Program-made: the position numbers and the translations under genes | The notes under the pieces: model-generated | The model's database searches: none | Seen by the model: only the letters and a program-made list of their open reading frames with translations | Told to the model about the DNA's origin: nothing | DNA from: a virus | Length of the DNA stretch: 20,626 bases | Strand: one strand, 5' to 3' | IMG/VR virus record: IMGVR_UViG_3300017717_000120 | Span: 1-20,626 of that record | Shown here: positions 8,946 to 11,148 of the stretch, one piece after another | How the letters are laid out: each line of letters begins with the position of its first letter | How positions within the stretch are numbered: position 1 is the first letter of the stretch

Positions 8946-9062
8946 GTGCGACATGTTGACACAGCAATTAATTTGTAAAGCGTTGAAAAATAAAGGTTTT
9001 ATTATGCCAATAACGCTTGACTTTAACCACAAACTGTGATAGGATATAGACTATATTATGAA
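8946..9062 (+). repeat. Duplicated intergenic block, copy 2 (in front of CobS-like gene)
   Basis: This is the second copy of the block at 6472-6590, with the same ordered string of short identities ending at TATATTATGAAAA. It lacks the branched T-tract structure of copy 1. It has its own possible fold instead: GCGTT (8980-8984) with AACGC (9012-9016), enclosing AATAAA and TTTATT as an inner stem. It holds promoter P3. Confidence 0.7.
9017..9045 (+). promoter_or_regulatory. Early sigma70-like promoter P3 (CobS-like gene)
   Basis: -35 TTGACT at 9017-9022 (context GCTTGACT), 17 bp spacer ending TGTGA, -10 TAGGAT at 9040-9045. The bases from -10 to the first ATG (9046-9057) are identical to those of P1, a 12-base match in an otherwise different context. 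Confidence 0.87.
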
Positions 9063-9084
9063 AAAAAATGAAAGGACTACATTT

Positions 9085-10257
9085 ATGTTAAACGAGAAAC
9101 AAAAAAAGTTTGTTGACCTTGCGGTTAAAGAACTTGGTACTGATACAGTAACAAGAAAGCAAGTACAAGAAATTGAAACAAAATTTAACCTTACTGGTAA
9201 CAGTTGGTTAGTAAATTCAGGAGATTACAAAGTGGGCAGAGGCGTATATAAATTACCTACTGACGGTGTTGTAAACCCTAGTAAGAATATCAAACAGAAA
9301 TTGCCTAAGACTAAAGCAGTTGCTGAGACAGTTACTTTAAAAGAGACTGCTCAAAATACTGAGAGTTTAGTTCCTAATAAAGAGGCAACTTTCGTATCAT
9401 TTGGTAATTACAAAGATATTAAGAATATTGTAAAATCTAAAATATTCTATCCTACATTTATCACAGGTCTTTCTGGTAACGGTAAGACTTTAGGTGTTAC
9501 TCAAGCGTGTGCTGAGTTAAAAAGAGAATTAATTAGAGTTAACATAACTGTTGAAACGGACGAAGATGATTTACTTGGTGGTTTCAGACTAGTTGACGGT
9601 GCTACAGTATGGCATGACGGTCCTGTTGTTGACGCTATGAAGCGTGGTGCTCTTCTTTTATTAGATGAGATTGACCTTGCTTCAAACAAAATTATGTGTT
9701 TGCAACCTATCTTAGAAGGTAACGGAGTGTTCCTTAAAAAGATTGGTAAATTTGTTGAACCTGCTGAAGGTTTCAACATTGTTGCTACTGCCAATACTAA
9801 GGGTAAAGGTAGTGAAGACGGAAGATTTATTGGTACTAATATACTCAATGAAGCATTCCTTGAAAGATTTCCTGTTACATTTGAACAAGAGTATCCTCCT
9901 GTAAAAGTAGAACAGAAAATTTTAGATAATGTTATGTCTGCTTATGCTTTAAAGGATCCTAAGTTTACTGAGAACCTTGTTAAATGGGCAGATGTTATTA
10001 GAAAAACTTTTTATGATGGCGGTGTTGATGAGATTATTGCTACTAGAAGACTAGTGCATATCATTAATGCTTTTGCTATCTTTAAGAATAAACTTAAAGC
10101 TGTTCAAGTTTGTGTAAACAGATTTGATGACGATACTAAAAACAGTTTCTTAGATTTATATTCTAAAGTTGACGCTGGTGTTAACATGGAAGATATATCT
10201 GGAAATGCGAATGATGTTGACGCAATAAACATGGAAGAGGAAACTCCAAGTGTTTAA
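9085..10257 (+). CDS. cobS: MoxR/CobS-like AAA+ ATPase
   Basis: This AAA+ ATPase belongs to the MoxR/CobS branch, a widespread marker gene of marine T4-like phages. Numbered from the ATG at 9085, it has an N-terminal winged-helix-like segment (about 3-57), Walker A GLSGNGKT (128-135), a FRLVDG..VWHDGP insert typical of MoxR proteins, Walker B LLLLDEID (190-197) and sensor-1 ATANT near 237-241. MoxR ATPases usually work with a VWA partner, and the gene directly upstream encodes one. The phage role is unknown; cobalt chelation is unlikely without CobN. The start at 9085 is supported by AAAGGA (9071-9076), 8 bases away. The ATG at 9058, 12 bases past the promoter -10, is the alternative and gives 399 residues. 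Confidence 0.88.
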   Translation: MLNEKQKKFVDLAVKELGTDTVTRKQVQEIETKFNLTGNSWLVNSGDYKVGRGVYKLPTDGVVNPSKNIKQKLPKTKAVAETVTLKETAQNTESLVPNKEATFVSFGNYKDIKNIVKSKIFYPTFITGLSGNGKTLGVTQACAELKRELIRVNITVETDEDDLLGGFRLVDGATVWHDGPVVDAMKRGALLLLDEIDLASNKIMCLQPILEGNGVFLKKIGKFVEPAEGFNIVATANTKGKGSEDGRFIGTNILNEAFLERFPVTFEQEYPPVKVEQKILDNVMSAYALKDPKFTENLVKWADVIRKTFYDGGVDEIIATRRLVHIINAFAIFKNKLKAVQVCVNRFDDDTKNSFLDLYSKVDAGVNMEDISGNANDVDAINMEEETPSV

Positions 10258-10284
10258 TAAAAACATTCATAATGTAGACCTCGT

Positions 10285-10313
10285 ATCCGTGGGCAGCAAT
10301 GTCCACGGATTTA
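10285..10313 (+). terminator. Stable hairpin after the CobS-like gene (possible terminator)
   Basis: An 8-bp perfect stem, ATCCGTGG (10285-10292) with CCACGGAT (10303-10310), and a 10-base loop sit 27 bases after the stop. Only three T residues follow directly, so termination would be weak. It may instead protect or process the transcript next to the tRNA-like element that begins 9 bases later. Confidence 0.45.
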
Positions 10314-10319
10314 AAACAA

Positions 10320-10393
10320 GCGGGTGTGGTATAGAAGTATTACGCCAGTTTACCAAACTGGAAATGCAGGAGCGTTACCTGCCATCCGCTCCA
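10320..10393 (+). tRNA. tRNA-Gly-like cloverleaf, anticodon ACC, degenerate D- and T-loops
   Basis: Every stem of a cloverleaf can be drawn. Acceptor GCGGGTG (10320-10326) pairs with CATCCGC (10383-10389, one G-T), then T and CCA (10391-10393). The D-arm runs from 10329 to 10343. The anticodon stem is CCAGT (10345-10349) with ACTGG (10357-10361), its loop TTACCAA placing ACC at 34-36. The T-stem is GCAGG (10366-10370) with CCTGC (10378-10382). The sequence recalls bacterial tRNA-Gly(TCC). However, the D-loop AGAAGTA lacks the GG pair, the T-loop AGCGTTA lacks TTCRA, and the variable loop is 4 bases. Codon GGT would be the match. It is either a decayed tRNA or a tRNA mimic. The bS21 ATG follows 14 bases after the CCA. 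Confidence 0.6.
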
Positions 10394-10407: not shown

Positions 10408-10611
10408 ATGTCAATAACTGTTGTAGTAAAAAACAATAATGTTGAAAAAGCAATCAGACAGCTTAAGAAAAAACTTATGAGAGAAGGTGTAGTGAGAGAG
10501 TTGAAGACAAGACAATACTATGAAAAACCATCAGAAAAAAAACTCAGATTAAAAAAGGAAAACATTAAGCGTGTCCTGAAAAACAAAAAAATAAGGGAAA
10601 GGGAACAATAA
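10408..10611 (+). CDS. rpsU: Ribosomal protein bS21 (phage-encoded)
   Basis: This 67-residue protein matches bacterial small-subunit protein S21. It has a short beta-start (ITVVVKNNN), a helix with AIRQLKKKLMREGVVRELK, then the diagnostic R.YYEKPSEKK segment and a very basic C-terminus. bS21 sits near the anti-Shine-Dalgarno end of 16S rRNA, and phage copies, reported in pelagiphages among others, are thought to replace or supplement the host protein and steer initiation to phage mRNAs. The ATG at 10408 has AAAGGG at 10396-10401. The frame stays open upstream to 10324, but that stretch is the tRNA-like element and is not coding. It ends 1 base before the next ATG. Confidence 0.93.
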   Translation: MSITVVVKNNNVEKAIRQLKKKLMREGVVRELKTRQYYEKPSEKKLRLKKENIKRVLKNKKIREREQ

Positions 10612-10948: not shown

Positions 10949-10955
10949 ATAGTTT

Positions 10956-11042
10956 ATCTAGGTAGCTCGTAAATCCTAGGTAAGTCTTGCCTCTCGTAAA
11001 TGCAAGACATTGAGTTTGGCAGTATCTCTTTAAAAACTGCCA
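10956..11042 (+). promoter_or_regulatory. Three tandem 7-bp hairpins with related loops
   Basis: Three consecutive hairpins fill this stretch. Hairpin 1 is ATCTAGG (10956-10962) with CCTAGGT (10975-10981). Hairpin 2 is GTCTTGC (10984-10990) with GCAAGAC (11002-11008). Hairpin 3 is TGGCAGT (11017-11023) with ACTGCCA (11036-11042). The stems differ, but loops 1 and 2 share CTCGTAAAT and loop 3 has CTCTTTAAAA. Same stem length, same loop size (11-12) and similar loop sequence suggest repeated binding sites on RNA. There is no T-tract after any of them, so they are not ordinary terminators. They lie between the winged-helix gene and the Hsp20 late promoter. Confidence 0.6.
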
Positions 11043-11067
11043 CTTGAAATATGAAATTTAATGATTA

Positions 11068-11075
11068 TATAAATA
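11068..11075 (+). promoter_or_regulatory. T4-type late promoter TATAAATA (Hsp20)
   Basis: A perfect TATAAATA, the -10 element used by T4 gp55-type late sigma, lies 73 bases before the Hsp20 start. No -35 is needed for this class. Transcription would start near 11081 and give a 5' leader of about 68 nt. A related CATAAATA is at 10944-10951, directly before the triple hairpin; it may be a weaker late promoter, but it overlaps a stop codon and could be chance. Confidence 0.65.
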
Positions 11076-11148
11076 CTTACGAAGCATGCCATAAGGGTGT
11101 TTCAATTTATATAAAAAAATAACTTTGCTTTAACAAAAGGAGGTTCAA

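Follow-up and report, generated by a model that had tools for sequence, protein, structure and literature searches.

A probable functional tRNA-Gly with an alternative elbow in a pelagimyophage genome fragment

The DNA analyzed here (the window) comprises 20,626 nt, positions 1 to 20,626 of the virus record IMGVR_UViG_3300017717_000120. It is a fragment of a pelagimyophage near HTVC008M, with ocean SAR11 bacteria as the host group. Between a cobS-like gene and the gene for bS21 (Table 1) lies the sole ARAGORN call of the window, a tRNA-Gly(acc), and the Rfam model RF00005 matches the same positions with 49.5 bits (E 4.5e-8 for the whole window; gathering cut-off 29). A chance tRNA-like fold is ruled out by these scores. 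The tRNA was the only match in the Rfam scan of the window, no terminator or promoter signal beyond chance level turned up around the element, and none of the six window genes scanned had a Pfam match to TROVE (Y RNA/YrlA context).

Table 1. Features of the tRNA-Gly element and its surroundings (positions are those of the window)
Feature	Positions	Strand	Support
tRNA-Gly(ACC) gene with encoded CCA and alternative elbow	10320..10393	+	ARAGORN; RF00005, 49.5 bits; covarying stems in relatives
Acceptor stem, 5' strand (partner 10383-10389); G1-C72, C2-G71	10320..10326	+	33 diverse relatives: 100% paired, double changes in 6/7 pairs
D-loop AGAAGTA; A18 at 10336, G19 at 10337	10333..10339	+	A14, A16, A18, G19, U20 and A21 invariant in 74 distinct Gly members
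Anticodon ACC, would read GGU	10352..10354	+	ARAGORN; NCC Gly anticodon in all near relatives
T-loop AGCGTTA; A54 at 10371, G55 at 10372, C56 at 10373, G57 at 10374, U58 at 10375	10371..10377	+	G55, C56, U59 and A60 invariant in 74 Gly members
Discriminator U73 and encoded CCA	10390..10393	+	Sequence; U73 in 70/74 Gly members
cobS-like AAA ATPase gene, upstream	9058..10257	+	98.7% identity to HTVC008M CobS; Pfam AAA_5
bS21 gene, ATG at 10408, 14 bases past the tRNA end	10408..10611	+	Pfam Ribosomal_S21, 2e-18
Motif CATAATGTAGACCTC and GC-rich hairpin, between cobS and tRNA	10268..10310	+	Conserved; also in relatives without a tRNA here

The element parses into an acceptor stem (GCGGGTG/CATCCGC), the bases TG, a D stem (GTAT/TTAC) enclosing AGAAGTA, a single G, an anticodon stem (CCAGT/ACTGG) enclosing TTACCAA, a variable loop of 4 bases (AAAT), a T stem (GCAGG/CCTGC) enclosing AGCGTTA, and a final T and CCA. 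An earlier note on this DNA, made from the letters alone, had given the coordinates, strand, encoded CCA, ACC anticodon, variable loop length and distance to the bS21 start codon correctly, and had rightly described a D-loop without GG and a T-loop without TTCRA; the covariance scoring that it proposed as a check supports a tRNA. Its four intact stems are real as a structure, except that the D stem forms 3/4 pairs, with U13-U22 unpaired.

In the cobS-bS21 gap of most pelagimyophages, CATAATGTAGACCTC (CATAGTGTAAGTCC in other groups) is followed by a GC-rich hairpin, whether the tRNA is present or absent. As motif and hairpin also occur in relatives without a tRNA here, they probably constitute an element separate from it. 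The ACCTC or GTCCT of this element could pair with the bS21 Shine-Dalgarno sequence, which suggests a translational control element. Elsewhere in the window, a long non-coding stretch with hairpin-like repeats (CTCGTAAAT twice) follows a 111-aa gene (10949-11148).

The stems of the tRNA-Gly family covary. In a set of 33 diverse Gly members, pairing holds for 96.2% of the stem cells, and double changes occur at 17/21 pairs; double-change cells number 193, against 48.5 +/- 6.1 in shuffles, and slid controls on the same members reach at most about 48% paired. The loops are conserved as well. In 74 distinct Gly members A14, A16, A18, G19, U20, A21, U33, C35, C36, A37, G55, C56, U59 and A60 are invariant, position 15 is A in 71 and G in 3, 70 have U73 and the 4 array members from Verrucomicrobiota have A73, and 54-58 is exclusively G-G, A-U or U-U. 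The loop consensus in relatives is A(A/G)AAGUA for the D-loop and NGCRKUA for the T-loop, and the encoded CCA is retained in most of them. Glycine identity of a tRNA is set by C35, C36, G1-C72, C2-G71 and U73. All of these are present in the window tRNA and conserved in relatives, with C35C36 invariant among the Gly members and C2-G71, G1-C72 and U73 nearly so.

Among bacterial tRNAs, the G18-Psi55/G19-C56 elbow is generally regarded as near universal. Measured against the canonical elbow (G18G19; U54U55C56RA58), the window tRNA is changed at positions 18, 54, 55 and 58 and keeps G19 and C56, which places it in the class with A18-G55 and G19-C56. As read from the sequence, the elbow is swapped and not lost, with A18-G55 in place of G18-U55, A-U, G-G or U-U in place of U54-A58, and G19-C56 unchanged. 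The "paired loss of elbow contacts" of the earlier note is contradicted by the presence of G19 and C56 and by the conserved A18-G55 alternative in many phage tRNAs, and its wording of a "degenerate" element in "recent decay" does not agree with the conserved loops and covarying stems of relatives. Selection for a tRNA-like RNA, which it also considered, is borne out by relatives that keep the stems through covariation and keep the odd loops; aligning the locus in related phages returned the covarying stems that it looked for, with loops that are conserved rather than degenerate.

To assess the coupling between the two loops, 2.03 Mb of DNA, mostly from phages, was scanned without regard to loop sequence. 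This yielded 864 distinct cloverleafs, 773 of them with C56 and R57. Among these 773, GG D-loops were combined with U55 in 518 and G55 in 5, and AG D-loops with G55 in 220 and U55 in 6. Clustering at 75% core identity left 264 GG/U55 (3 exceptions) and 110 AG/G55 (2 exceptions), counts that do not represent independent events, as most loci had been retrieved for containing a tRNA of this kind and many of them are related. Of the three GG/G55 exceptions, two have the D-loop AGGAGYA, readable as A18. This covariation points to an A18-G55 contact. Position 48 is A in 58/68 swapped tRNAs with G54-G58, 15-48 is A-C in 38/60 with A54-U58, and 15-48 remains R-Y in 35/40 with U54-A58. The T-loops of the orthologous tRNA-Ile of Nostoc and Calothrix (GGCAGTA vs AGCATTA) represent a natural change from G-G to A-U at 54-58, and two tRNA-Glu (L244/L151) are identical outside the loops, where D-loop TCTGGTGA is replaced by TCTAGTGA and T-loop ATCGTAA by GGCAGAA. 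Since U55 is absent and U54 usually so, Psi55 is impossible and m5U54 mostly impossible in swapped tRNAs.

The same loops were found with anticodons for Ile, Val, Gln, His, Asp and others when fetched loci were scanned for the D-loop only, and the loop-blind scan recovered all 20 isotypes in both elbow classes; a restriction of the swapped elbow to Gly is therefore rejected. Discriminators largely track the amino acid of the anticodon in both classes (G73 for Asp/Asn, C73 for His, A73 for Ile/Val). ARAGORN recovers 512/518 canonical tRNAs (99%) and 77/223 swapped ones (35%), and 0/65 of those with T-loop GGCAGTA. A swapped tRNA-His, mostly left unannotated, is present in 33 Streptomyces phage records, namely phage Bmoc (NC_055842.1, 94223-94296), which has it in addition to an annotated tRNA-His, and 32 related records. 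In cellular genomes the class occurs in tRNA arrays of Verrucomicrobiota and cyanobacteria, by which a strict restriction to viruses is rejected; the plasmid arrays of Nostoc and Calothrix (L311 6512, L312 6006) hold one swapped tRNA-Ile(GAU) each, without encoded CCA. One strict pattern searched in 385 alphaproteobacterial genomes gave 2 matches, the phage copy in a MAG with a pelagiphage contig and one that is not tRNA-like (judged without stem scoring), and matches on genome contigs L140, L143, L144, L147 and L149 were dismissed as chance, the acceptor stem being absent. The predicted alternative-elbow tRNAs are a broad class, mainly of phages and mobile tRNA arrays. Separately, a TROVE/Ro60 gene (PF05731, phrog_850) adjoins the tRNA arrays L139, L141, L142 and L146; the arrays of three Verrucomicrobiota MAGs among these are rich in swapped tRNAs, and that of a cyanobacterial MAG holds some.

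HTVC008M contains the same element, unannotated, as the sole tRNA found in its genome, and is listed with 0 tRNAs in a pelagimyophage survey (PMC7029224, Table 1). In the cultured phage Mosig the homologous element sits under a 31-aa "hypothetical protein"; the annotated Mosig_000011 (MT647606.1, 7774-7869), which overlaps the tRNA-Gly gene, is probably no real gene. RF00005 scores 41-47 bits on the relatives L031, L034, L094, L104 and L111. Near relatives have Gly anticodons only (ACC, UCC, GCC), with the swapped elbow in all, and some pelagimyophages carry two tRNA-Gly (UCC and GCC). For a comparison of position, loci of relatives were picked by cobS alone. In the HTVC008M clade the tRNA precedes bS21, with a gap to the bS21 ATG of 13-17 bases in most. 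In most other pelagimyophages the same tRNA is flanked by hsp20 and the sliding-clamp gene, often with some 25 bases separating it from the clamp gene that follows, and it is therefore a replication-region gene and not one linked to bS21. A bacterial MAG (Alphaproteobacteria bacterium TMED93) includes a pelagimyophage contig with gp44, sliding clamp, hsp20 and a swapped tRNA-Gly; apart from the phage copy, the tRNAs of this MAG are canonical, the tRNA-Gly genes found in it have UCC and GCC anticodons, and its host-type tRNA-Gly has the same identity elements as the window tRNA.

An ordinary tRNA-Gly in relatives, which the earlier note would have taken as a sign of simple decay, was found at long range only, in T4; all near relatives are swapped. 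The T4 tRNA-Gly(UCC) (GCGGATA TC GTAT AATGGTA TTAC ... TTCGATT ... TATCCGC TCCA) shares with the pelagimyophage members the acceptor stem (GCGGATA/TATCCGC) with U73 and the D stem (GTAT/TTAC), as well as the lengths of the D-loop (7 bases) and of the variable loop (4 bases). Its elbow is canonical (D-loop AATGGTA, T-loop TTCGATT), in contrast to AGAAGTA and AGCGTTA in the window, and the T4 and T5 tRNAs used as controls all have canonical elbows. The simplest reading is that the window gene may derive from a T4-type phage tRNA-Gly whose elbow was rebuilt.

Taken together, positions 10320-10393 probably encode a functional phage tRNA-Gly of the T4 tRNA-Gly lineage, with a rebuilt elbow that belongs to the broad alternative-elbow class. 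The tRNA would be cut out of the cobS-bS21 transcript, adopt the usual L shape with its flat G19-C56 face preserved, be glycylated by the host GlyRS and decode glycine codons during infection. RNAs that bind the elbow, among them the L1 stalk and RNase P, recognize the G19-C56 face as its exposed surface (PMC4810234). Translation supply would most likely be its role, because the same elbow serves all isotypes and this face is intact. Glycine codons in the window number 240 GGT, 33 GGC, 44 GGA and 4 GGG, so that GGU accounts for 75%. The ACC anticodon suits this usage, but phages with UCC have the same one (GGT 76-79%). Codon tuning of the anticodon found no support, with GGT at about 77% alike in the ACC, UCC and GCC+UCC groups; since the anticodon switches between ACC and UCC at equal glycine codon usage, it is glycine identity that is conserved and not codon matching.

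Several other explanations were weighed against this functional tRNA. That the element is a decaying tRNA-Gly pseudogene from host or phage has very little probability: its elbow motifs are non-textbook, one D stem pair is mismatched and the survey credits HTVC008M with no tRNA, but all stems covary, the odd loops are themselves conserved in the 74 Gly members, both elbow positions change together across isotypes and the encoded CCA is mostly kept. Decay private to the window copy is countered by its stems and CCA, neither of which is broken or lost. The unconstrained stems and loops expected of a tRNA pseudogene were not seen in relatives, and for the tRNA-Gly family decay is refuted. Another use of a tRNA-Gly, outside normal elongation, would be as a glycyl donor or as bait for a host tRNA-targeting enzyme. 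The non-proteinogenic tRNA-Gly of staphylococci illustrates how a tRNA-Gly that lacks the usual elbow can become uncoupled from translation. Glycine identity is conserved here while the first anticodon base is not codon-tuned, and near relatives keep exactly the Gly isotype, which in HTVC008M is the sole tRNA found; a glycylated tRNA used outside the ribosome would leave the same sequence traces. We nevertheless regard this use as improbable, because this elbow is found across all 20 isotypes, as fits a general translation supply, and because the tRNA retains the outer elbow pair that the ribosome and RNase P recognize.

The position before bS21 raises a further explanation, a cis-acting operon element in which RNase P and 3' processing would split the cobS mRNA from a bS21 mRNA with a short leader, as punctuation or regulation. 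In favor of this are the gap of 13-17 bases from the tRNA to the bS21 start codon in most HTVC008M-clade members, the lack of an evident bS21 Shine-Dalgarno sequence in L007-L009, and the OM43 phage Melnitz, in which bS21 follows an ordinary tRNA-Arg(tct) at a distance of 13 bases (L307 2344-2435), an arrangement already recorded (PMC9004378). A tRNA directly before bS21 thus occurs in two phage lineages, the HTVC008M clade and Melnitz. In most pelagimyophages, however, the gene is located between hsp20 and the sliding-clamp gene, relatives of the tRNA reside in large arrays, and Gly identity, which punctuation does not need, is conserved. The explanation is accordingly an unlikely one. A bS21 leader regulator as the main role was rejected, the fixed position before bS21 being confined to the HTVC008M clade, and the regulatory role proposed in the earlier note is weakened.

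If the window gene is a functional tRNA-Gly, the question is why its elbow is swapped. A tentative answer, which we hold to be possible but doubtful, is that A18-G55 with matched 54-58 and 15-48 makes up a second natural elbow code, kept by phages and mobile arrays, which would be as functional as the textbook one and unseen by readers of U54/U55 or G18 (TruB, TrmA, tRNA-targeting toxins or nucleases). Phage tRNAs would then remain in service when those of the host are modified, cleaved or degraded. The plain alternative is neutral drift along the coupled pair instead of escape from enzymes. A testable link is raised between elbow identity and tRNA-directed defence or modification, and a coupled, recurring alternative elbow for all amino acids offers natural test pairs for elbow function. 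Phage tRNA counts are also too low, as HTVC008M was reported with 0 and ARAGORN misses about two thirds of the swapped class.

What is probably new here is a natural, coupled alternative elbow and its breadth; a literature search, largely without subscription papers, found no description of A18/G55 tRNAs. In suppressor tRNAs selected by Zagryadskaya, Doyon and Steinberg in 2003, G54-G58 can reportedly replace the reverse-Hoogsteen U54-A58. Those tRNAs came from randomized libraries, whereas here G54-G58 is natural, common and found together with A18-G55. A eukaryotic tRNA-Ala with A54/A58 and R15/A48 is similar in that 54-58 and 15-48 depart jointly from U-A and R-Y, with A34 anticodons involved (Westhof et al., 2020; PMC7566577). 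Its abstract gives the variant as absent from bacteria and reports no change at 18-55, in contrast to the tRNAs described here, in which 18-55 is swapped to A-G and 54-58 is G-G, A-U or U-U. Like the window tRNA, tRNA-Pyl and metazoan mitochondrial tRNAs are without G18G19 and the TPsiC motif (PMC7609411), but they have changed arm lengths and have lost or replaced G19-C56, while the window tRNA retains a standard cloverleaf and G19-C56. Among the L-arrays (Anabaena trn operon, PMC10272220), the Nostoc and Calothrix plasmid arrays hold one alternative-elbow tRNA-Ile and the Verrucomicrobiota arrays hold many; the window differs from these in containing a single tRNA within a phage gene cluster and no array.
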